DNA of 64,000 nt from Pseudomonas brassicacearum (lineage in GTDB: Bacteria; Pseudomonadota; Gammaproteobacteria; Pseudomonadales; Pseudomonadaceae), in assembly GCF_009601685.2 (NCBI RefSeq), contig NZ_CP045701.2:2108001-2172000 (forward strand), read 5' to 3'. Shown here one piece after another: positions 35,197-46,622 of this stretch. How positions within the stretch are numbered: position 1 is the first letter of the stretch; each line of letters begins with the position of its first letter. The position numbers and the translations under genes were made by a program. The notes under the pieces were generated by a model. That model did no database searches. It was not told the origin of the DNA and saw only the letters and a program-made list of their open reading frames with translations.

Positions 35197-36183
35197 TTAA
35201 CGCCCTTCCAGCAGTTGCCCCGCCTGATCCAGCAGCGCCAATGGGTCCTTGGTCTTGTGGATGTCCACCGACAACAACTGCCGAAACCGCCGCGCTCCCG
35301 GGAAACCGGTGCCCAGCCCCAACACGTGACGGGTGATGTGATGCATCGCGCCGCCAGCGGCCAGGTGATCGGCGATATAAGGTCGCAACTGCGCCAGCGC
35401 CTCGGCCCGGGTGATGACCGGCGCGGTGCTGCCGAACAATTGCTGATCCACTTCAGCCAGCAGATATGGGTTGTGATAAGCCTCGCGCCCCAGCATCACA
35501 CCGTCGAAGGTCTGCAGATGTTCGTGGCACGCCTCCAGCGTCTTGATCCCGCCGTTGAGCACAATCTCCAACTCCGGAAAATCCGCCTTCAACCGCGCGA
35601 CCACGTCATAACGCAGCGGCGGGATGTCGCGATTCTCCTTCGGCGACAACCCCTCCAGAATCGCAATCCGCGCATGCACGGTAAAACTCGTACACCCGGC
35701 CTCACGCACCGTCCCGACAAACTCACACAATTGCTCGTAACTGTCCCGCCCATTGATCCCGATGCGATGCTTGACCGTCACCGGAATCGACACTGCATCG
35801 CGCATGGCTTTCACGCAGTCAGCCACCAACCCCGGATGCCCCATCAGGCAGGCGCCGATCATATTGTTCTGCACCCGATCGCTGGGGCAGCCGACGTTGA
35901 GGTTCACTTCGTCGTAACCATGCTCCTGGGCCATACGGGCGCAGGCGGCCAGGTCGGCCGGGACACTGCCGCCTAGTTGCAGGGCTAGCGGGTGTTCGGC
36001 TTCGTGGTGGCGCAGGAAGCGTTCGTGGTCACCATTGAGGAGCGCGCCGGTGGTGACCATTTCGGTGTAGAGCAGCGCGTGCTTGGAGAGGATGCGTAGG
36101 AAGAAGCGACAGTGGGCGTCGGTCCAATCCATCATCGGGGCGACGGAGAAGCGGCGGGAGAGCGGGGCAGTTTGTAAGGGCAT
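35197..36183 (-). CDS. dusA: tRNA-dihydrouridine(20/20a) synthase DusA
   Basis: DusA reduces uridine 20/20a in the tRNA D-loop using FMN and NADPH. The protein has 328 residues. It has the FMN-binding FSVAPMMDWTDAHCRFF, the active cysteine in VNLNVGCPSDRVQ, and the VKHRIGIN and LNGGI segments. The gene is intact although an island is inserted at its 5' end: the first 60 coding bases (from the FMN-site region to the ATG) are part of a 75-bp direct repeat found again at 44460-44534. dusA is a known integrase target. Confidence 0.96.
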   Translation of the reverse strand: MPLQTAPLSRRFSVAPMMDWTDAHCRFFLRILSKHALLYTEMVTTGALLNGDHERFLRHHEAEHPLALQLGGSVPADLAACARMAQEHGYDEVNLNVGCPSDRVQNNMIGACLMGHPGLVADCVKAMRDAVSIPVTVKHRIGINGRDSYEQLCEFVGTVREAGCTSFTVHARIAILEGLSPKENRDIPPLRYDVVARLKADFPELEIVLNGGIKTLEACHEHLQTFDGVMLGREAYHNPYLLAEVDQQLFGSTAPVITRAEALAQLRPYIADHLAAGGAMHHITRHVLGLGTGFPGARRFRQLLSVDIHKTKDPLALLDQAGQLLEGR

Positions 36184-36198
36184 TGGGAATCTGAATCA
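36124..36198. repeat. attachment-site-like direct repeat, proximal copy (in dusA)
   Basis: These 75 bases cover the dusA start and 15 bases upstream. They match 44460-44534 at 70 of 75 positions in the same orientation. The pair brackets the accessory block, as expected for att sites of a dusA-targeting element. Confidence 0.85.
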
Positions 36199-36285
36199 GC
36201 GAGGCGGATGGCACAGTTTATCAGGGAAGGGCAGGAGGTGTTGGGAGAGCAATATTGCGCCGACTTCACCATTTGTGCGGGGACA

Positions 36286-36345
36286 TTGTCGAGTGAGAAA
36301 TACGCCGAGGATTTGAAGGCGATTACCGTGTACGCGATACGGAGT
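36286..36345 (-). pseudogene. C-terminal relic of a RelE/ParE-type toxin
   Basis: On the minus strand, in a frame different from the antitoxin, the residues TPYRVHGNRLQILGVFLTRQ look like the last strands of a ParE toxin (typically PYRV-x-G-x-x-(I/L)-x-IL-x-V). No N-terminal two-thirds of a toxin is present; the antitoxin 3' end runs directly into this piece, suggesting an internal deletion. Confidence 0.45.
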
Positions 36346-36586
36346 CCGCGCCAATTTGATTCCCTCGCCGGGCACGCATCGCTGCCACTTGGTCATCGGA
36401 AGCGAATTTGCCTTGGTCAGCTTCCTTTACCGCAAGTTCGATCTTTGTGGTCATCGCTTTTTCACGTTCGATGTAGTCGCGAAGAACGTCCATTGCCAGG
36501 TAGCTCGCACTTTGCCCGTTGGTCTTGGCCAGGTCGGCGAGGGAGTTCGATAGGTCTTCGGGCAGATTCAGGGATATGCCGGACAT
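36323..36586 (-). CDS. ribbon-helix-helix antitoxin, orphaned
   Basis: This protein of 87 residues starts MSGISLNLPEDLSNSLADLAKTNGQSASYLAMDVLRDYI, a typical RHH DNA-binding domain of the ParD/CopG group, followed by a toxin-binding helix (IELAVKEADQGKFASDDQVAAMRARRG). The final residues (NQIGADSVSRTR) do not look like a family C-terminus and are probably read-through into a deletion scar. The partner toxin survives only as a fragment overlapping the 3' end. Confidence 0.75.
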   Translation of the reverse strand: MSGISLNLPEDLSNSLADLAKTNGQSASYLAMDVLRDYIEREKAMTTKIELAVKEADQGKFASDDQVAAMRARRGNQIGADSVSRTR

Positions 36587-36828
36587 GGCAGCCTCGATGG
36601 TGGACGTTTTCGGGCATCTTACACCGTTGACCGAGCGCTTGAATCAGCAGGCCTTCGCAAGGTGTGTCTCGACGTGAATTGTTTCCCTCCTGCACAGATC
36701 TGAAAAGCCTCACCGACGCCGCCGTCGAAGGGTACATTTCTGCGGGTGAATCTGGTTTGGGCTAGGCCTGTGCAGTGACTACAAATTGCTCGGCTCTTAC
36801 TCTTATTGCCTTCTTGATAGAAAATTTA

Positions 36829-37628
36829 ATGAATCTGTCCCATTTCTTTCGCATGGATGGGCGGAAAATACCGTCTAGCCGACCCGCCTCATTCCGCTTT
36901 TTCCGCCTCACGAATGCTATGTCGAAGTCTTTGCCGGCGGTGCCGCGCTTTACTTCATTCGACCCCAGGCCTCCCCGGTTGAAGTCCTGAATGACATCAA
37001 CGGCGACTTGGTGACGCTCTATCGCGTCGTGCAGAACCACCTGGAAGAATTCGTGCGCCAGTTCCAATGGGCGCTCAGCTCCCGTCAGGTGTTCGAGTGG
37101 CAGAAAATAACCCGTCCCGAAACCCTCACCGACATCCAGCGCGCCGCCCGGTTCTTCTACCTGCAGCACCATGCCTTCGCCGGCAAGGTCACCGGGCAGA
37201 CGTTCGGCACCGCGACCACTGGTCCGGCCATCAACCTGCTGCGAATCGAGGAGAACCTCTCGGCCGCGTGGCAGCGACTGTCCGGCACCTACGTCGAAAA
37301 CCTCCCCTGGCTTGAATGCGCTGAACGCTACGACCGTGCCCACACCTTCCACTACATGGACCCCCCTTACTGGCAGACCGCGGGCTACGGTGTGGACTTT
37401 CCGTTCGAGAACTACGAGCGGATTGCCGACTTCATGCGCCGCTGTAAAGGCAAGGTGATGGTCAGCATCAACGACCACTCTGACATCCGCCGTGTGTTCA
37501 AGGGCTTTCACTTCGAGACTTTGGACATCCGCTACAGCAGCACCAATCAGCGGCAAGGGAAAACTGAGATCAGTCAAGAACTGGTGATCATGAATTGGGA
37601 TCCGGTATCCTCTGGAGGATTATTTTAG
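36829..37628 (+). pseudogene. D12-class DNA adenine methylase, two frameshifts
   Basis: From ATG 36829 the frame reads MNLSHFFR; after about 36853 an extra base shifts it so that the motif FAWMGGKYRLAD (the SAM-binding W-x-GGK motif) is read in a second frame. An extra C near 36883 shifts it again into the frame that carries FPPHECYVEVFAGGAALYF, EVLNDINGDLVTLYRVV and the catalytic DPPY (HYMDPPYW). The restored protein would have about 265 residues, normal for phage-type Dam enzymes. Downstream of the second shift the frame is open to 37628. A shortened protein could start at 37008 but would lack the SAM motif. Confidence 0.8.
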
Positions 37629-37864
37629 AAGGCGTAACCAGGGTGGTTGGGCACGCACCGTGCATGACCGGCAACCAGTGAATACGGTGCCTGGAGGCTA
37701 ATTGCGTTCGCAAAGAAGATCGGCATCCGGTAATGTTAGATAAGCATTGCCTGCCATCGCAGTCGTATTGGATGCATGAGTTTCGATGAAGCACTGTGTG
37801 GCGGCTCAATACATTAGCCAGCCAAAGCTATTTGTATAATTCTAGCTAATTCAAAGGAATGTCT
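37629..37864. other. gap before the low-GC gene run, with a candidate promoter
   Basis: No coding signal is seen. TATAAT at 37835-37840 is a good -10 box for the gene at 37865; the -35 region is weak. AAGGA lies six bases before that ATG. Confidence 0.4.
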
Positions 37865-38779
37865 ATGAGTAATTCGGCCCAAAGTGGTAATGCAAACTTG
37901 AATAATGGTACTAGTCAAAATGAACTTAGACGAACATTCATTGCAATGTTGTTTGCCCTGGTTGCAGCGACAATAGCTCAGCAAATAGCTGAGCTATTAT
38001 TTGTAGTTACCGGCGGTTGGGATTTGGCTTCTAGTCCACCGAAGATGTGGGAAAATTTACTTTCCGGCAATGGGCTGCTTTTTGCATCGCTTACGCACTC
38101 TTTTCTGGCGTTGCTTATGGTATCAATGAGCTGGGTTATGTGGTCTAAGTCTCAAGCTGCCGGCCATAAGACTGAGATTGCACATATTTTTTCAAAGGAG
38201 TTTGTGCTTTTATTAATCGAAGTATTTCTTGTTGTTCTGTATTTTGCTATTGCCAAAACAATGGAGCAAAATTTTACGGAGTATATGAAGGATAAGCAGA
38301 TATCTAAATATGTTGGAGTGGCGTCTGCTCGTCCCGAAGCACTCCAAATGATGTGGGTGTTTTCCGTCTTCTTTGTCTGGGACGTGATTGTAGATGTTAT
38401 CTATAGTCCACGCACCCCCCATCCTGTTCTTATCCGCGAAAGGTTTTACTCTTTCATTCAAGGGCTTTTGACATACTGCTCTATCTCATTGCTCTGTGTT
38501 TTCGCTGCTTGGATGGTTAGCCGGGCAGCGCCATCTGCGGGTACTCCATACGAAGCTCTATGGGGCGACATATCGCTAATTGCTCTTCTTTTGTTTTTCG
38601 CATTGGGTAAACAGCTCGAATACTTCGCGATCAAATTTTTCCCAGGCGAAGATAGCCGGAAAAATACTAGGCGTGACCATCCGCCTTCAACTAAGGCGGC
38701 GGTAATGATGGTTTTCCTTTCTGCCGTTTATATTTATTCGATGATGGTGTTGATATGGCCGCCGAGCTTCCTCAAATAA
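37865..38779 (+). CDS. unknown polytopic membrane protein
   Basis: This protein of 304 residues starts at ATG 37865, which has AAGGA upstream; an ATG at 37859 is too close to it. After a polar, Asn/Ser-rich start it has about six or seven hydrophobic segments (roughly 27-48, 70-95, 112-130, 160-178, 200-220, 232-250 and 280-300). I do not recognise the family and no catalytic motif stands out. Codon and base use are much more AT-rich than the core genes. Its 3' end overlaps the P-loop gene by 25 bases, so the two are coupled and probably functionally linked. Confidence 0.75.
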   Translation: MSNSAQSGNANLNNGTSQNELRRTFIAMLFALVAATIAQQIAELLFVVTGGWDLASSPPKMWENLLSGNGLLFASLTHSFLALLMVSMSWVMWSKSQAAGHKTEIAHIFSKEFVLLLIEVFLVVLYFAIAKTMEQNFTEYMKDKQISKYVGVASARPEALQMMWVFSVFFVWDVIVDVIYSPRTPHPVLIRERFYSFIQGLLTYCSISLLCVFAAWMVSRAAPSAGTPYEALWGDISLIALLLFFALGKQLEYFAIKFFPGEDSRKNTRRDHPPSTKAAVMMVFLSAVYIYSMMVLIWPPSFLK

Positions 38780-39315
38780 TTGGCTTAGTAGGGCCTATCA
38801 GGGCCGGTAAAACGACGATTACAAAATACCTGGTTGAGAAATACGGGTATATATCCGCTTCCAACTCTGACGTGCTTAGGGAAATATTAGAAGGTATGGG
38901 GATACCTTCTGATCGGGAAAGATTGGGAAGGTTGGGTAACTCGATTTTTAAAGTTTTGGGGAACGACATTATCGCAAGGTATCGCCTCGATAACCTTCAC
39001 TTGGGGCGGATAGTTGTCGATGGCATTCGCTATCCAGAGGAGATAAAACGGTACTCTGAAGTTGCGAGTTTTAAACTTTTGGCTGTCACAGCAGATCCGG
39101 ATGTGCGTTTTGATAGGACCTTAAGAGACCGGACAGAATTGAAGGATGTAGGAATTTCTCGTGAAGCGTTTGATGGTTTAGTACTGTCGAGAAGTGAACT
39201 AGATGTTCCTCAGCTCGTGTCAATAGCGGATGAGGTAATTGTAAATGAAAAAGGTTTTGAGAGTCTAAAGCAAAGAGTTGATCAGATTCTGAAAAAATGG
39301 AGTTCTGACTCTTAA
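38755..39315 (+). CDS. P-loop kinase-like protein (nucleotide/dephospho-CoA kinase fold)
   Basis: This protein of 186 residues has a Walker A motif at residues 13-20 (GPIRAGKT) followed by ITKYLVEKYGY. The IVVDGIRYPEEIKRY segment and the D-P-D-V-R-F-D-R-T lid-like region resemble dephospho-CoA kinases and phage dNMP kinases. The true substrate is unknown. It overlaps the membrane protein gene upstream by 25 bases and converges with the SAM methyltransferase gene, overlapping it by four bases. AT-rich like its neighbours. Confidence 0.75.
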   Translation: MAAELPQIIGLVGPIRAGKTTITKYLVEKYGYISASNSDVLREILEGMGIPSDRERLGRLGNSIFKVLGNDIIARYRLDNLHLGRIVVDGIRYPEEIKRYSEVASFKLLAVTADPDVRFDRTLRDRTELKDVGISREAFDGLVLSRSELDVPQLVSIADEVIVNEKGFESLKQRVDQILKKWSSDS

Positions 39316-40052
39316 GGAAGGCCTAGAAGTTGTTTTAAAGTGTTTGCGCAGGCCTCCATCTGCGCATCGCTTTTACCAAATATCCAATATTCGTGATTTA
39401 GACATAAATCACTTGAGTCATGGATTCTAAGTATCTTAAAACCGCAGTCTTGTATGTCTGAAGCGAGCTTTTCTCTGGCAGCGATGCTGCGCCGATATAC
39501 GTTGGCGACAATGACTCCCGTTGCTTTCAAGGTCCTGCTTAGCTCGGTTAGTTGAGCTTTGTAAAATGGGAAGTGCAATACAAATACGGCAATCACCATT
39601 TCGAAATAGCCCTCTTCATAAGGAAGAGTGTATGTGGTGTCAGAGAAAACATAGCAGTCGAGATCGTTGCTCGAATGGGATTTGACTACTATCTCATCTG
39701 CATCTGATAGGACGTAATGCATTCCCAGCGTAGCATTGACTTTAAATACCGGGTTTTTGCCTGCGCCGATTTCTAGAAGGCTGGAGGGTGCGATTTTAAT
39801 AGCTAACGATTCAAATAAAGAGCGGACTTTACCATTTGCGGGGCTTATTAATTCAGGGAATTGGGCGCGAGCGCGGCATAGATTGCTGACTTCTATTGGC
39901 TTCAGCTCGTCGAGGTGTTCAATATGAGTGTAGAAGTAATCCATGAATCTGAAATATTTGGTTCCTTGATATATCGTCTCACTTGGTCCTTTCTCATTTT
40001 TTTTATATTTGAGAACACCAGGTTCGATCATCTCAAAATCTTCTTCGTTCAT
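39312..40052 (-). CDS. class I SAM-dependent methyltransferase, unknown substrate
   Basis: This is a protein of 246 residues. An N-terminal helical region (to about 85) precedes a Rossmann fold with motif I SLLEIGAGKNP (91-101), an acidic post-I strand (HYVLSDADEIV) and a motif IV-V region (YFEMVIAVFVLHFPFYKAQLTELSRTL). The family looks like Methyltransf_11-type small-molecule or protein methylases; the substrate is not evident. It is 18 bases downstream of the DNA methyltransferase gene on the same strand, probably in one operon. Confidence 0.75.
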   Translation of the reverse strand: MNEEDFEMIEPGVLKYKKNEKGPSETIYQGTKYFRFMDYFYTHIEHLDELKPIEVSNLCRARAQFPELISPANGKVRSLFESLAIKIAPSSLLEIGAGKNPVFKVNATLGMHYVLSDADEIVVKSHSSNDLDCYVFSDTTYTLPYEEGYFEMVIAVFVLHFPFYKAQLTELSRTLKATGVIVANVYRRSIAAREKLASDIQDCGFKILRIHDSSDLCLNHEYWIFGKSDAQMEACANTLKQLLGLP

Positions 40053-40070
40053 GCTCCACTCCCTCGGATC

Positions 40071-41267
40071 CTAATTTTTTATAAATACTAGAATGTCTTC
40101 GCATTTAACTTTTGCCATTAAGCGTCTGCGACTTATTTTTATGTTTCTTTCTTTCCTTAGCGCGAGAGTGAACCCCTGATTGATTGCAGAAAATATTAAA
40201 TCGTCAGTAGTTGAGGCTCTTGCCTGAGATTCACCCACTACTAATGCCATAGATGAGCCTTGTTTAAGTATGCGAAAGCTCTGTTTGAAAAAGCTAGCCA
40301 TGAAGCTCATATATAATTCATGGCTGTTTTTTCTAGAACGATTTGACCTGGCCCCAGACTCGGCTGAGCGAAGCTTCTCAAAATCTCTAAAGCCCAGCCG
40401 TTCAGCAGCAAGCTCGTCTTTATCAAACCACAAGTAACTGAGTCGTTGTGACTTTACATAATCGGCCACGCCGTAATAAGGCGGGGAGGTCATGATGAAG
40501 TCAATGTGATCGTTCGGAATAGACTCCATGTTCGCTACGCAGTCACCGGCAAGCAGTTTGTAACGAGATCGAGTTTGTTTTCTCGTTTCCTTCTCTACGT
40601 GAACTTGTACCGCCTTGTGAGAAAGCTGAGTTAATTTAAGATATTCGTTAGTAGCATTGCGAAATGTTAATAGTGCATCTTTTGGAACTATTTCGGACGG
40701 CTTTGGTTTTACGTTATCGCAAACCCATCCCCAATGACGACCCTGTGAAGAGGTGTTTTTCAGTATTCCGGAGAAAATCGCAAGCAAACATTTTTTAAGT
40801 TGAAGGCTTTTGGTTTCAAGTATGGAAGATAATAAACGGTTTAATGTGAAAAGTGTGTCCGGGTGATACCAAGCACGAAGTTCCTCTTCATGAGGATGAG
40901 GTTCTGCTAGTTTTGTTCCAAAAAGATTTTCCGATTCGTTGATAATAATATCAATTTGCTTTCGAAGGCTGTTTGGGTCAGGGAAGTAGAGCTTTGCTTC
41001 GCTCATAAGTAACGCAATTGGGTTTGTGTCTATCCCAATAAAATTTCTACCTAGTCTAACTGCCTCTACTCCAGTTGTTCCGGACCCGTTAAAAGGATCT
41101 AAAACAATATCGCCTTTTTGCGTAAAAGCAGGAATTAGCGTGCCGGGAATCGCTGCAATATAGGTTGCTGGATACCAATGGAGTGAGTGGATTCCCGAAT
41201 TGCTGAGATTTGGGAAAGACCAATCTATATTTTCTAGATGCTCAGTTAAGTTCAAATGGGAATTCAT
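40071..41267 (-). CDS. DNA methyltransferase (N4-cytosine/N6-adenine type)
   Basis: This protein has 398 residues if it starts at ATG 41267 ([20 protein letters not shown]). Motif [11 protein letters not shown] (57-66), precedes the catalytic TSPPYYG (260-266), so the order is SAM motif first. A region of about 190 residues between them could recognise the target. The closing [11 protein letters not shown] is typical of the N6_N4_Mtase fold. The start overlaps the HD gene by 26 bases, which suggests translational coupling; a GTG at 41342 is an alternative start. No restriction nuclease is adjacent. Confidence 0.85.
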
Positions 41268-42546
41268 CCGTTTCGGCGTAGAAGCTTCCTTTATATGTTT
41301 CCGGGAATTCAGCTTCAAAAATATCGACTTCAAAAAGGTCACAGAATGCAGTCGTAACCTTTTTTCTCCATTCGATTATATCTGGCAATAACATTTTAGG
41401 TTTGCCTGGTGTCTTCTTAATCAGCGAAATCATACAGCTAGTAGAGTTTTCGCCGAGAATTACTGTCCCCTTGTCATTGTCAAGAGGGACCTTAATTTCA
41501 CGGCAAATTAGACCTTTTTCATTCCATACGAAATAGGTCGGATCATTGAACGGTACATCCACACGATGTGAAATGTATTCAGCAATCTCCGCGTTCTTAA
41601 GTTTTTTTGAAGTGTGAAAGTTTTTAAACCATACGTAATCAATAAGATGATATTCGCATCCGGAAATGAGCTGCTGTGCCAAAGTTGCTGTGCTCGGGTG
41701 TTTGCGAAGTTTCTCTTCAAACTCCGGCTCAGTCATATGCCAATTTTCAAGTGTGATAACTTCATTCTCAACTGCTCGACGAACTAAATCCGTTTGGAGC
41801 GCGTTGTATGGAATGCATTCAGGGTGTGCAATTATCATTGTGTAGATGCGCTGCCTGAAATCTATCCACTTTTTTAGCGGTTCAATAGCTGCTTCGCTAA
41901 AGATAAGTCCAGATTTTTCGTTCAACTTCATGCATTTGCGCAGTTTAACTATGTTTTCTCTAGCATAGTCCCATCCAAGCATCGCTGCCATTCGATGAAC
42001 GTTGTCGATGTTATCGATATCAATGTCCGCAGACACAGCGCTGTGGAGTCCAGGTTTCGGACAAACTAGATTAATCACCGCATCTTGATTGACGTTGTGT
42101 TTGCGCAAAATCTTCTCAAGTTGCAACTGCTTGCCTGGAACAATTTCTAGATACGCATTATCTTTGTTGAGCGTTCCGCTAATTAAAGCTGACAGCGTTT
42201 CTTCATGATTAAAGTTAGGGGCGACACGTTTGAGTTCCGATTCCACGAGATGGCCATACGGTGGAATGGCTGCATCATGTAAAATCGCTGCGGCGAGTAG
42301 TGCCTTTGTTGCATCTATACTTAAATTGCTTTTGTGTGCTAATTCTACAGCAAGATAAGTTACCCCAATCGAGTGAGGGAGGCGTCTGGATCTTCCGAGT
42401 TCTTGGATAAGAGGCACATCAAAATTCATTTGACGCATGTTTCGTAGCCGGTGAATCTCCGGGCTATCTATGAGATCGGCGAGTAACGAAGTTAGGCTTT
42501 CATCTGAAAACCTCATGAGCCCATGCAAGATGTCGTGGAATTCCAT
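41242..42546 (-). CDS. HD-domain phosphohydrolase (dNTPase/SAMHD1-like)
   Basis: The protein has 434 residues from ATG 42546 ([13 protein letters not shown]), with AAGGG five bases upstream. The start [15 protein letters not shown] and the metal-binding set H58 (RLPHSIGV), H90-D91 ([12 protein letters not shown]) and H99 match the HD family that contains dGTP triphosphohydrolases and SAMHD1. The C-terminal half is unfamiliar. dGTPases of this kind can act in phage defence by draining dNTPs; here the function is inference. It heads a coupled minus-strand run with the DNA and SAM methyltransferases. Confidence 0.82.
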
Positions 42547-43292
42547 ATGGCCCTTCATTTCAAACGTAGCGGGGCGTAAACCCAAATTGGTCAATTGTAC
42601 ACGCTAACGGTGCGTATATCACATGCCACTCAAGCGATCCCCATGCTGCCAGGGACGCTGCACCCATGACTGACCGATTTGCACCCTTGATTTCGACATC
42701 TTTGGTCAGCACTGTCAGTGCCAGACCAAGCAAGGCCCGCCTGAACAAGGGTCTGTAAATCCTTCCAGATATCTAGGTGGCTTTTCCCCGGCAGCGGCAG
42801 ACCGCATAGAGGCCGTACCTTCGTAGATGAGACGTTGAAGTCCAAGCGCCCGAATGTCTACCCGGTCAAGATCACCTCGCAAGCTTGGAGGGCCGAGCGC
42901 CCTTGACGGCGACTTAGCTGCAGTTGCTCGCCTATACAAGATACTTTTTTCATCGGGATGCATTGCGCTCCGGTGAGGGGACACCACCAATCGAGGGGCC
43001 TCAGATACCCAAATGTTTCGTTTAAGCAGAGTGACTGGCTGATTTTTTAGCGCAAATTTAGGGCGAAACGCAGGCCGTTATAGGCCCTTGCCGGCCTTTC
43101 AAATGAGGCATTAACCTCATCAATAGTGGGCTATAGCGGCCTGCGGTCTCGCCTGATCGGGTTCGAGTCCCTAACCATAGCGACTGAATTGCTGTAGTGG
43201 ACAAAATACTGCCATTTGCAATAGGCAGCTATCACCACTAAATGGACATCTGGCTTTTGAAGTTTGTGTGATTTGGCTAGCGGCCTGCTACG
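42547..43292. other. 746-base gap with no recognisable gene
   Basis: Short open frames on both strands have no family features I recognise. The segment holds a strong inverted repeat at 43070-43144 (listed separately), a T-arm-like GGGTTCGAGTCCC at 43159-43171, and a small CTGCC/GGCAG hairpin near 43210-43228. The base composition changes from AT-rich to GC-rich across it, so it may be a junction of two inserted pieces. Confidence 0.5.
43070..43144. repeat. long RNA-like inverted repeat inside the island
   Basis: The arm 43070-43087 (GCAGGCCGTTATAGGCCC) pairs with 43128-43144 (GGGCTATAGCGGCCTGC) over 17 base pairs with one bulge and one wobble. Inside lies a second hairpin ATGAGG at 43103-43108 with CCTCAT at 43115-43120. 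There is no T run, so it is not a simple terminator. Confidence 0.6.
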
Positions 43293-44000
43293 TCAACGGC
43301 TCCAGAACGCCGCGCTCGCATTTTTCAGTTGCGCATCGAGCGATTCCCATGCGAACCCGGCGTTTCGGGTAAGCATCTCGATGATCTCCACGAGGCGTTG
43401 CATCTGCTCTACAGTTGTTTTGATGTCACCCCATTTGATGCCTAACGTGCTGATGTCAACAAACTGGTATTTATCTGCTAAATAGCGCACTTCTGTATGT
43501 GCAGATACCTTGTCACGAATGGTTCTGAATGACTTAATTGTTGCACTAGTTGATAACACCGCCCATAGTTTGCTGGCCTCGCAATACAATTCATCGAATT
43601 GGGATCCAAGCTGAGCTTCTTCGCGCAGCTCCAAGCGTCTCAGGGCCTCAAGTATTTCGGTGTCGGTCACATCTTTGTCGTTAGGTATTTTCCAGTTAGC
43701 AAACTGTTCACGTAGTGTTTGTCGAAGAGCGTCGTCAGTCAGTGCTTGAATACTATTGTTTAAGCTTGGTGTTCGCGGATCATCATCGAACGTCAGTTTT
43801 GCTATGTCCTGCGCACATGAGAGGAATAATGAGTGCTTAAGAATGCTAAACCCCATAGCTCGTTCTCCGGAGCCAAGGGTGGTCACGACAGTTTCATCGA
43901 AAAGCATCGGGTCTAGGATCGAATACCTCTGACGCATTTCAATAAATGCATCGAGTAAATGAGATGCATGAGCCTGAATTTTTTCAAGCGAGGTAGGCAT
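43293..44000 (-). CDS. HEPN-domain protein, AbiU2-like
   Basis: This all-helical protein has 235 residues from ATG 44000 (MPTSLEKIQAHASHLLDAF). The segment RTIRDKVSAHTEV contains R162-x5-H168, the (R-x4-6-H) signature of HEPN RNases, and the layout (long helices, then a loop, then R-D-K-V-x-A-H) resembles the abortive-infection AbiU2 family. HEPN proteins commonly cleave RNA in defence and toxin systems. No clear antitoxin is adjacent; the small gene at 44098 upstream on the same strand could be a partner. Confidence 0.65.
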   Translation of the reverse strand: MPTSLEKIQAHASHLLDAFIEMRQRYSILDPMLFDETVVTTLGSGERAMGFSILKHSLFLSCAQDIAKLTFDDDPRTPSLNNSIQALTDDALRQTLREQFANWKIPNDKDVTDTEILEALRRLELREEAQLGSQFDELYCEASKLWAVLSTSATIKSFRTIRDKVSAHTEVRYLADKYQFVDISTLGIKWGDIKTTVEQMQRLVEIIEMLTRNAGFAWESLDAQLKNASAAFWSR

Positions 44001-44097
44001 GATTTGTGCCTCTATTAACCTTGTAAAACAGATCCTGCCGTCTTCGTCCAAGAGCGGCCCAAAAACTTGAATTCGGAAACGGCATAGCCGATCGACT

Positions 44098-44313
44098 CTA
44101 GCCAGCGGTCTTTCCCTTCAGCCTGGCCAACCCCTGCGTTATGTGCCCGGCGTTCTCACCAATCGTCCATAAAGCCCCGCGAACGTTTTCCCCAACCTCT
44201 GCCAGACGTTGCTTTTCAGCATGAAGCGTCAGCTCCATCAGGGCACCCTCCAATCCGAGCTGATTTTCATACACCCTTTCCAGCACGTCCGCTAGCGAAT
44301 ATTTGTCTGACAT
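44098..44313 (-). CDS. small hypothetical protein
   Basis: This is a protein of 71 residues starting MSDKYSLADVLERVYENQLGLEGALMELTLHAEKQ. It is soluble, amphipathic and helical, with a basic C-terminus (LARLKGKTAG). I do not recognise the family. It lies 97 bases upstream of the HEPN gene on the same strand, near the distal end of the dusA island. It might be a small partner of the HEPN protein, but nothing in the sequence shows that. Confidence 0.55.
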   Translation of the reverse strand: MSDKYSLADVLERVYENQLGLEGALMELTLHAEKQRLAEVGENVRGALWTIGENAGHITQGLARLKGKTAG

Positions 44314-44459
44314 GGCATCGACTTCTTTCGAAAAAGGAAAGAGTAGTACCGGTAGTGCATCTCGTAGGCGGTAATCGCTGCATGCTTAGAAATTGCTACA
44401 AAGCAATGTGTTCTCGAGCGGGTGGCCAGACTGGTCGGGGTTCAACGTGCCGGCTACGC

Positions 44460-44534
44460 CCAATCCATCATCGGTACGACGGAGAAGCGGCGGTAGAGCG
44501 GGGCAGTTTGTAGGGGCATTGGGAGTCTGAATCA
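44460..44534. repeat. attachment-site-like direct repeat, distal copy
   Basis: This is the second copy of the dusA 5' end (70/75 identical to 36124-36198). The five mismatches include one that would create a stop in the dusA frame (TAG region at 44495 read in plus sense is not coding). No dusA body follows, so it is a displaced att copy. Confidence 0.85.
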
Positions 44535-44591
44535 AAATAGCATGACGTTGAGCTCACACCGAGGATCAAAGCAAATGCGACTGCCCCATTC

Positions 44592-45314
44592 TCACTGCCC
44601 CATGCTTACGCTGATTATGGTTTCGGTTTGGATGTCTACCAAGCTCAATGCACCGTCGGAAAATGAGCAGCCAGTGTCGATATAAACGACGTTGCCCAGG
44701 CGTATGATGCTGGGTACTGTTGAGTGCCCAACATAGAGCCGGTCTATTCCTCTGATGGAAGTGTGGTCTTGTTGCTCGATTTTCTCTCTTGCATACAGTG
44801 CTGTTTTCAAGGCGTGCCGCTGATGTGGCTCCCCAGAACTTCCAGTGATAGCGTCTTTGGCTTCCTGCCAGCCATCGTCACTTCGGATGACAGGAACTTC
44901 GGCATGGACTATTCCAATTGTTTGATCGCTTGGTAAATTGATTTCGATGATCAATGGAAGTGCTTGCAAGGCTTTTAAAAGCTCATGCTGGATGGTGGGC
45001 TGTAATTCGTACAACCAGGCTCCACCATTTCGGATATGTCGGGGTATGTCGCCATGGCCGGAGATACAGTCAATAAGCATCTGCTCATGATTGCCGCGCA
45101 CGGCATGGAACCACGGTTTCTCTAGCCAGTTCAATACGTCTATGGAGTCGGGACCTCGGTCGATGAGGTCTCCCACGGAAAAGATGCGATCCAGCTCTGT
45201 GTTGAAGTCTAGTTCGTTTAAGGCTGCTGTTAGAAGTTTGAAGTGTCCGTGGATGTCGCCCACCACAAAGTCGCGACCTTTTTTATTGGGTGGGAATGAT
45301 TTCGTCTTGTACAT
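44592..45314 (-). CDS. PPP-family metallophosphoesterase (PrpA/PrpB or lambda phosphatase type)
   Basis: This protein of 240 residues carries the metal motifs GDIHGH (about 18-23), GDLIDRGPDS (about 47-56) and RGNHEQM (about 74), then a late YVGHST histidine. These are the features of bacterial and phage lambda Ser/Thr phosphatases. The substrate is unknown. It lies just outside the distal att repeat, alone on the minus strand, next to the Fic module. Moderately AT-rich. Confidence 0.87.
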   Translation of the reverse strand: MYKTKSFPPNKKGRDFVVGDIHGHFKLLTAALNELDFNTELDRIFSVGDLIDRGPDSIDVLNWLEKPWFHAVRGNHEQMLIDCISGHGDIPRHIRNGGAWLYELQPTIQHELLKALQALPLIIEINLPSDQTIGIVHAEVPVIRSDDGWQEAKDAITGSSGEPHQRHALKTALYAREKIEQQDHTSIRGIDRLYVGHSTVPSIIRLGNVVYIDTGCSFSDGALSLVDIQTETIISVSMGQ

Positions 45315-45406
45315 TTATAGTGCTTCAACAGATGTTGAGTGGCGGTGACTGTATCACTTGGCGAAATGAACGGTAAGACGCTGAGTGGGGGGATAACGTT
45401 GTACGG

Positions 45407-46006
45407 TCAAGCTTGAATCGCCTGCCCAATACACTTCTCAAAAACCTGCTCCATAGGCTCCATAACGCAGTTGTAAGCCGCGATATTGGCATAGATCCAC
45501 TCGTCCTTTTCAATCCCCCACCAACTGATCTCAAACCCGGCATTCATGATGAGGTGTTCAAACAGGATGCGCTGGGCACGGCCATTGCCTTCGCGGAAGG
45601 GGTGTACGACGTTGATGTCGGAATAGGCCTCTGCCACAGCGACTATCAGCTCAACCCGCTCCATGCCCTCGAACCAGTTTGCCGCGGCCATGTTGGCGAA
45701 GATCTTATTGGCTTCTTTCTCCATGTACTCAGGTTGGCAGAAGCGGGTGGCTTGTTTGGACATTCCAACGGTACGCAGCTCTCCGGCCCATTCGAACAGG
45801 TCGGAAAAGAGAATTCGATGAATGTTTTGAAGGTAAGCCAGGCTGTAGGGAGGAGGGCTGAATTCGACGTTGTCCGCGGCGATGGCCGAGAGTTGTTGTT
45901 CGGCTTCGCTTAGGGTCGGTTCGTCTCGAATATCGAGTTTGTTGCGAAGGACGGTGGAGCCGGGATAGCAATAAGCGTCCTCGCCGACTCCATATTTGTC
46001 AGGCAT
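45407..46006 (-). CDS. Fic-domain AMP-transferase toxin
   Basis: This protein of 199 residues carries the full Fic motif HPFREGNGRAQR (H135-R146). The flap region KQATRFCQPEYM (about 84-95) positions the target. Fic enzymes transfer AMP from ATP to Tyr/Thr/Ser of target proteins (topoisomerases in the VbhT and FicT cases). The ATG overlaps the stop of a 56-residue antitoxin gene (TGATG). The pair is therefore a class I Fic toxin-antitoxin module. Confidence 0.9.
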   Translation of the reverse strand: MPDKYGVGEDAYCYPGSTVLRNKLDIRDEPTLSEAEQQLSAIAADNVEFSPPPYSLAYLQNIHRILFSDLFEWAGELRTVGMSKQATRFCQPEYMEKEANKIFANMAAANWFEGMERVELIVAVAEAYSDINVVHPFREGNGRAQRILFEHLIMNAGFEISWWGIEKDEWIYANIAAYNCVMEPMEQVFEKCIGQAIQA

Positions 46007-46176
46007 CAGGTTCTGGTCTGGGTGAAGGCCTTCAAGACCTCTTCACGCGTTGGCATTTTGCGTTCGCCGTCCGCGAAGGTCGTTTTGAAACCTTCCAGAC
46101 GGAGGCTGGCCGCGTAGTTGGATCTACGCGTCCTGGCGGCATAGGCCTTTTTGGTTTCAAGGCTGACATTGCCCAT
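46006..46176 (-). CDS. Fic antitoxin, YhfG/VbhA-like
   Basis: This gene encodes 56 residues, MGNVSLETKKAYAARTRRS and onward, ending FTQTRT. The segment A-S-L-R-L-E-G (S24-x3-E28-G29) matches the inhibitory helix motif (S/T)-x-x-x-E-(G/N) of class I Fic antitoxins, in which the glutamate blocks ATP binding. GAGG lies about eight bases upstream of the ATG. The stop overlaps the fic start, so translation is coupled. Family name YhfG is from memory. Confidence 0.85.
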   Translation of the reverse strand: MGNVSLETKKAYAARTRRSNYAASLRLEGFKTTFADGERKMPTREEVLKAFTQTRT

Positions 46177-46410
46177 GGGCTGGACCTCAAATCGCGCTGG
46201 TGGGCGGATTATAGCCCATCCTGTTGGCGTGGCCTATGTTGCGGCCTGGACGAAAAGCGTTGGGCGCATTCGTTTCGAGATTTGTCCTTGTCGCCCATAG
46301 CTGCGCTGCCCAATCCATAGCCGGACACTCTCATCGGAAATTTCCCTCAAGCCGCGTCGCTCCCCGCTGACTATCCACCCAGTCACCCCGTGCGCTAAGT
46401 TTTCTCCGTC

Positions 46411-46622
46411 GCTGCAAATTCAGCGGCAGGGTGTGGAAGCCCTTACTCAAAGGCGCGTAGCGCCGCAAAATTTAAAGCAGACACTTTTCTTATGTCTGCT
46501 GTTAAATTACGGCGGCTGTACGCGGGGCGTCCTAGGGCGCGCCGGGTTCCTGAGTGCCGGTCTTCCACACCCGCGTACAGCTGCCACCCATCATGTGGAA
46601 GTGATGCTGGCAGATATTTCTC
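46411..46622 (+). ncRNA. highly structured leader or small RNA, candidate
   Basis: Consecutive perfect stems are visible: GCTG/CAGC (46411-46424), GGCGC/GCGCC (46452-46464), AATTTAA plus GCAGACA with TGTCTGC plus TTAAATT (46469-46508), and GCTGTACGCGGG (46515-46526) with CCCGCGTACAGC (46570-46581). The last encloses two small hairpins. CTTCCACACCC (46562-46572) can pair instead with GGGTGTGGAAG (46429-46439) or in part with TGTGGAAG (46593-46600). The segment ends before the ribosome site of the small gene at 46642. Confidence 0.55.

Follow-up and report, generated by a model that had tools for sequence, protein, structure and literature searches.

Here we describe a block of five tightly packed genes in a 64,000-nt stretch of the Pseudomonas brassicacearum genome (contig NZ_CP045701.2, positions 2,108,001 to 2,172,000; hereafter the window), built around genes for a SAMHD1-like HD phosphohydrolase and a DNA methyltransferase (MTase). 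The five genes are one conserved heritable unit. Our preferred reading, which we hold tentatively with a probability of roughly 0.42, is that they would form a mobile anti-phage module acting on nucleotides, with the HD protein and the DNA MTase as core and three partners. The genes, in window coordinates and with protein lengths in amino acids (aa), are as follows:

41242-42546, minus strand: SAMHD1-like HD phosphohydrolase, 434 aa, DxDNxDN subfamily, core gene (Pfam HD 2.1e-5, fold, invariant residues)
40071-41267, minus strand: DNA N4/N6 amino-MTase, 398 aa, core gene (Pfam N6_N4_Mtase 8.1e-26, SPPY motif, packing)
39312-40052, minus strand: class I S-adenosylmethionine-dependent methyltransferase (SAM-MTase), 246 aa (Pfam Methyltransf_11 2.1e-5, present in 9/9 complete loci)
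38755-39315, plus strand: convergent P-loop kinase, deoxynucleoside monophosphate (dNMP)-kinase-like, 186 aa (PHROG 139 6.6e-14, AAA_17 3.6e-10, conservation)
37859-38779, plus strand: membrane protein, 306 aa, modelled with about seven long helices (without Pfam match; conserved with the other four)

In the window, the HD and DNA MTase genes overlap by 26 nt, the DNA MTase and SAM-MTase genes are spaced by 18 nt, the stops of the convergent kinase and SAM-MTase genes overlap by 4 nt, and the membrane-protein and kinase genes overlap by 25 nt. The HD gene starts at ATG 42546, with an in-frame TTG at 42594 too, and the DNA MTase gene starts at ATG 41267 within a longer open reading frame (ORF) from GTG 41342. 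The G+C content is 0.42 at 39001-41000 and 0.41 at 40001-42000, compared with about 0.58-0.63 across most other parts of the window. A promoter and terminator scan gave counts no different from those of shuffled sequence. An initial annotation of the window had proposed three AT-rich minus-strand genes, encoding an HD protein, a DNA MTase and a class I SAM-MTase, with no restriction nuclease adjacent. The three ORFs lie where it placed them, overlapping or 18 nt apart, and its family calls are borne out by Pfam HD, N6_N4_Mtase and Methyltransf_11. No nuclease family was found among the five conserved genes by Pfam (a scan of the ten proteins of 37008-46006 at E <= 0.05) or PADLOC, in agreement with its statement. 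The annotation missed the two convergent plus-strand genes, for the membrane protein and the P-loop kinase, which are part of the same conserved set.

A genome scan with the HD protein identified six loci, in P. fluorescens HKI0770, P. saxonica, P. lundensis L1802, Acinetobacter courvalinii, Exilibacterium tricleocarpae and an Alteromonadaceae metagenome-assembled genome, and tblastn located all five genes in 6/6 of them. Two viral contigs (L015 and L016) also carry all five genes, and a third (L028) ends at the kinase gene. In all nine complete loci (the window, the six from the scan and the two viral contigs), the five genes show the same order, orientation and tight packing. The window, L015 and L016 are near-copies of each other (84-98% per protein), so the nine represent about seven independent loci. 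Over the nine, the HD and MTase genes overlap by 11-92 nt, where the overlaps of 92 nt (L009) and 80 nt (L012) hinge on start codons picked by script; the MTase and SAM-MTase genes are separated by 1-27 nt, the SAM-MTase and kinase ends range from a 20-nt overlap to an 8-nt gap, and the kinase and membrane-protein genes overlap by 13-28 nt. Pairwise distances between loci, computed for each of the five proteins, correlate at 0.96-0.994 (36 pairs, nine loci) and at 0.935-0.989 when seven loci are used (21 pairs). The three genes first suggested as a set thus occur together in 9/9 loci that have a close HD relative and enough flank; as a unit they are inherited together, as proposed, but the full unit has five members, and the part of it that is conserved more deeply is the HD and DNA MTase pair.

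Homologue searches covered a larger protein set. Among the best 120 of 138 HD homologues and the best 120 of 3595 MTase homologues, 63/99 HD clusters on contigs of >=4 kb match an MTase cluster in the exact size of the longest contig. This matching is a proxy that leaves 36/99 HD clusters and 15/49 larger membrane-protein clusters without a match; contig 78719 (L009) carries all five genes yet is unmatched, so a miss does not mean absence. The membrane-protein search, of limited sensitivity, returned 74 homologues at E <= 0.001 from 5.8 billion proteins.

The model of the HD protein matches SAMHD1/EF1143 across residues 1-417, showing the same fold over the whole protein; the description as SAMHD1-like, for which the C-terminal half had been left to be checked, therefore holds for that half as well. 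Six residues (H58, H90, D91, H99, H114 and D178) are invariant in 25/25 aligned relatives, including the H58, H90-D91 and H99 named initially. The H...HD...D metal site is formed by H58, H90, D91 and D178, present in 25/25 of these relatives; D178, assigned by alignment to 2o6i and 6brg, is the remaining ligand that had gone unnamed. Loss of this site in homologues, which would have spoken against the initial proposal, is thus not observed. Among the best 120 of 138 HD homologues, DxDNxDN is present in 118/120 and HDxxHGP in 2/120. DxDNxDN is also found in 14/14 HD copies adjacent to an MTase and in 0/6 HD genes without an MTase in the stretch examined (L005, L006, L007, L023, L034 and L035, all but one of which have only about 1.5 kb of flank). 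Three of the MTase-adjacent copies (L026, L027 and L037) were found by patterns that included DxDNxDN among others and are not independent, and 11/14 were found without it.

In the DNA MTase, the SPPY motif is present in 120/120 and D(P/T/S)(F/Y)xG in 117/120 of the best 120 of 3595 homologues, and the protein has the features of the amino-MTase of a type II restriction-modification (R-M) system, with motifs I and IV. The mean pairwise identity among 13 type A-like sequences (type A denoting the five-gene arrangement) is 0.91 in the motif IV stretch and about 0.68 in the RHWGWVCDN stretch. Because identity falls below 0.3 only at residues 101-120 and 201-240, the MTase has no large variable target-recognition stretch. 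The kinase matches PHROG 139 over residues 6-181 (6.6e-14), and its best solved relatives are AdkA-like 3lw7 and UPF0200 3h0k. The SAM-MTase is a generic class I enzyme with no informative solved relative. For the membrane protein, Pfam gave no match, and neither PDB nor BFVD yielded one with Foldseek at E <= 0.001, which does not imply a new fold.

Distant HD relatives keep the MTase immediately downstream and exchange the other partners. Type B has the order flavin adenine dinucleotide (FAD) enzyme-HD-MTase-P-loop kinase and was seen twice, on Rhizobium etli pA (L022) and on a viral contig (L026). Upstream of the R. etli set lies a 611-aa PNP_UDP_1 protein (L022:3954-5789) that matches PN-superfamily effectors of cyclic-oligonucleotide-based anti-phage signalling systems (CBASS; 1.4e-13). 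In the viral contig, an HsdR-like gene (EcoEI_R_C 3e-29) and two genes that by eye resemble HsdS and HsdM (L026, 771-6763) form a run that joins the type B FAD gene by a 4-nt overlap. Type C has the order 428-aa protein of unknown function-HD-MTase-AIRS enzyme, in genome G571 (L019) and a viral contig (L037); the two copies of the first protein (L019:3810-5096 and L037:6760-7746) share 25% identity (2.4e-12), and the L019 copy has no Pfam match. Type D, with the order PP-loop enzyme-membrane protein-HD-MTase-second MTase, is represented by one copy (L027:6019-12157), in which the PP-loop call was made by eye from SGGRDS, with a weak QatC match. The deeper core is the pair of HD protein and DNA MTase, with exchangeable partners. 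An HD-MTase core combined with exchangeable small-molecule enzymes offers directly testable modules, types A to D. As a separate observation, directly upstream of one type A module (L013:7046-9515) lie genes for a dCTP-deaminase-like protein, a MazG-like protein and a divergent FAD oxidoreductase, the last with weak similarity to the FAD enzymes of type B (5e-8).

The module is mobile, as it is found in prophages, in an integrase/DUF927 element, beside Tn7-like genes and in a dusA island. Three features give the context in the window:

36124-36198, no strand: left island repeat, in the dusA 5' end, context only (75-nt direct repeat, 93% identical to 44460-44534)
44460-44534, no strand: right island repeat, context only (75-nt direct repeat)
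37008-37628, plus strand: prophage Dam methylase remnant, context only (MethyltransfD12 3.9e-6, profile 57-247 of 253)

The window module lies inside an 8.3-kb dusA island remnant (36124-44534), between the 75-nt direct repeats of the dusA 5' end, and no integrase is found among the ORFs listed for the island. A relative (G005) has a partial repeat copy about 46 kb from dusA. The Dam remnant matches longer Dam genes beside the module in L010, L015, L016 and L028, where Dam separates the module from genes identified by eye as phage lysis and tail genes. In the prophage-plasmid pPL-38ph, which lacks the module, the annotated Dam directly follows Rz and tail genes. In other phages, the slot after Dam holds no PADLOC-recognised defence gene save one weak AAA match, so a defence hotspot after Dam is not supported. 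A phage integrase and a DUF927 protein are encoded upstream of the module in L008, and in Acinetobacter, genes matching TnsA, rve/Mu-transpos_C, TniB and TniQ lie about 0.7 kb from the module.

We also surveyed genome draws, which overlap and each include the window's own genome. A full-length HD match was found in 4/298 genus genomes including the window's own, and three further weak matches in the genus are other HD proteins. The class draw (2/369) and the phylum draw (2/398) gave the window's genome and the distant G571, the order draw (1/390) gave the window's genome only, and the family of G571 (1/149) gave G571 only. A profile search of 388 phylum genomes gave four: the window's genome, G571 and two with generic HD genes. 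The E. coli collection showed no match to 36200-46500 in a near search or to the HD protein and MTase in a distant search, and a near search of plasmids returned one Dam match and nothing else. With the HD protein as query, the phage collection gave two weak Staphylococcus matches, of which the one examined (L023) has no MTase. An archaeal HD match in Natrinema has no DNA MTase among its annotated neighbours.

Three neighbouring genes in the window were considered as further members and rejected. An AbiU2-type HEPN protein (43293-44051, minus strand, 3.7e-26) is encoded inside the island and is absent from the other module loci searched: among L001-L013 only the window locus matched, and L015 and L016, which have little upstream flank, gave no match. 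A PPP-family phosphatase (44592-45314, minus strand), just beyond the right island repeat, had no match in L001-L013, L015 or L016. A Fic protein (45407-46006, minus strand; PADLOC PDC-S04, 3.9e-81), also just beyond that repeat, had one weak 65-residue match only, in L022. L001-L007 span only 3-4 kb and are a weak test of extra members.

From these data we infer a defence role, a nucleotide substrate, control by methylation or by a nucleotide, and a role for the membrane protein. A defence function would fit the mobile setting. At rest, the DNA MTase would mark (or scan) the cell DNA at a fixed motif. Upon infection, the HD enzyme would be released and would hydrolyse a nucleotide pool, blocking phage replication. 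The kinase-like protein and the SAM-MTase may make or remove a nucleotide that sets HD activity, comparable to the control of CloA by the CloB product in the Clover system, and the membrane protein could be a second effector or a tether. If the module is a defence system, it ties DNA methylation marks to nucleotide-pool control, and we know of no other case in which the two are linked.

Several observations weigh against this anti-phage reading. The positions aligned to SAMHD1 H210, K312 and Y315, which we take to be its phosphate-contacting residues, are I (T or S in distant types), N and N. Because three active-site positions are replaced, the HD substrate may be other than a standard deoxynucleoside triphosphate (dNTP). 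The initial label of a dNTPase-type protein is weakened, as these three positions differ from those of SAMHD1-type dNTPases, and dNTPase activity is putative. The DxDNxDN signature defines a subfamily of HD proteins in which the changes at the active site point to an unusual substrate. With no large variable target stretch in the MTase, self-marking of the R-M kind is likewise only putative. The correlated protein distances are partly due to shared host descent. The module is rare: the draws at class, order and phylum level added no further type A copy. A base-modification pathway would account for the accessory enzymes as well, and PADLOC, NCBIfam and PHROG contain no model that assigns the HD protein, the membrane protein or the SAM-MTase to a defence system.

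Nucleobase modification is accordingly the main rival, although we consider it unlikely. The DNA MTase and accessory enzymes would make or install an unusual base, either in DNA or in a free nucleotide. The HD protein would remove the incorrect nucleotide, a task that phage HD enzymes perform where the phage DNA is hypermodified. The partner classes (FAD/GidA-like, PP-loop, AIRS, SAM-MTase and dNMP-kinase-like) suit such a pathway, as the first three are used to decorate nucleobases; the kinase resembles dNMP kinases, and the HD active site departs from canonical dNTPases. However, the DNA MTase is an ordinary amino-MTase by family, and Pfam reveals no base-forming enzyme (thymidylate-synthase-like or TET/JBP) among the five genes.

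A bolder form of the defence reading, which we also regard as unlikely, is a nuclease-free counterpart of R-M. A fixed-specificity MTase would mark self, the SAMHD1-like hydrolase would replace the restriction enzyme and destroy a (possibly non-canonical) nucleotide on unmarked replicating DNA, and the kinase, AIRS, PP-loop or FAD enzymes would make the coupling signal. If true, the HD-MTase core would be common to a whole family of immune systems, of at least four architectures.

An improbable alternative is cargo that serves prophage fitness or lysogeny and has no part in defence, for instance by adjusting nucleotide pools for replication of the element itself. Several copies do lie at prophage ends beside Dam, but the five genes were also found in an integrase/DUF927 element and next to Tn7-like transposon genes, and elsewhere the core is accompanied by other partners. 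Still more doubtful is nuclease-type restriction, in which the HD protein would cut unmethylated nucleic acid and the pair would be an R-M system whose nuclease is the HD protein. Nuclease activity is known among HD proteins (Cas3), and in the DxDNxDN family the HD gene always adjoins a DNA MTase; the fold and catalytic layout are nevertheless those of SAMHD1/EF1143 phosphohydrolases, and the MTase lacks the large variable target-recognition stretch. That the three genes are unrelated AT-rich cargo is hardly credible: AT-rich islands gather unrelated genes, and AbiU2 lies in the window island outside the unit, but the conserved order, overlaps and correlated divergence in 9/9 loci, together with contig co-occurrence, rule it out.

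We finally compared the candidate anti-phage module with known systems. The HD dNTP triphosphohydrolases SAMHD1/EF1143 have HDxxH and D(K/R)xDY where the HD protein here has HDxxI (T or S in distant types) and DNxDN, and they differ in that the HD gene here adjoins a DNA MTase. The PADLOC dGTPase model gives a weak local HD match (4.1e-5) over residues 70-126, 57 residues only. The kinase matches positions 156-307 of 630 of the PADLOC dCTPase model (1.2e-10), a system that is presumably AvcD-like; its deaminase domain is not found here, the 186-aa kinase having AAA-type matches only, and a separate DCD-like gene lies near the L013 copy. With the dNMP kinases of PHROG 139, which we take to be of the T4 gp1 type, the kinase alone is in common. 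Type II R-M systems likewise have a DNA amino-MTase that could mark self DNA, but no restriction enzyme is found among the five genes by Pfam or PADLOC. No description of an HD-MTase module was recognised by title or start of abstract among the papers listed from an open-access library, a weak negative with most subscription journals outside it. According to an excerpt of PMC9122589, none of the bacteriophage exclusion (BREX) systems appears to contain a nuclease; in contrast to BREX, the nine proteins scanned besides the MTase show no PglZ or BrxC match, and the PADLOC comparison of the MTase covers the best 25 of 81 matches, so that a PglX match may exist beyond these. Clover combines an HD nucleotide hydrolase (CloA, a dGTPase) with a nucleotide-handling partner gene (CloB, a nucleotidyltransferase), and its CloA is the immune effector, with one activating and one inhibiting nucleotide, as described in PMC12265719. 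The HD fold is common to CloA and the HD protein here, which would be the hydrolase and a putative effector in a similar pairing. This makes nucleotide-handling partners plausible as controls here. In place of the nucleotidyltransferase, a family for which Pfam (E <= 0.05) gives no match in the ten proteins encoded at 37008-46006, the module has a DNA MTase, a SAM-MTase, a P-loop kinase and a membrane protein. The putative effector, a SAMHD1-like nucleotide hydrolase, is of a known kind, while the five-gene set looks uncatalogued.

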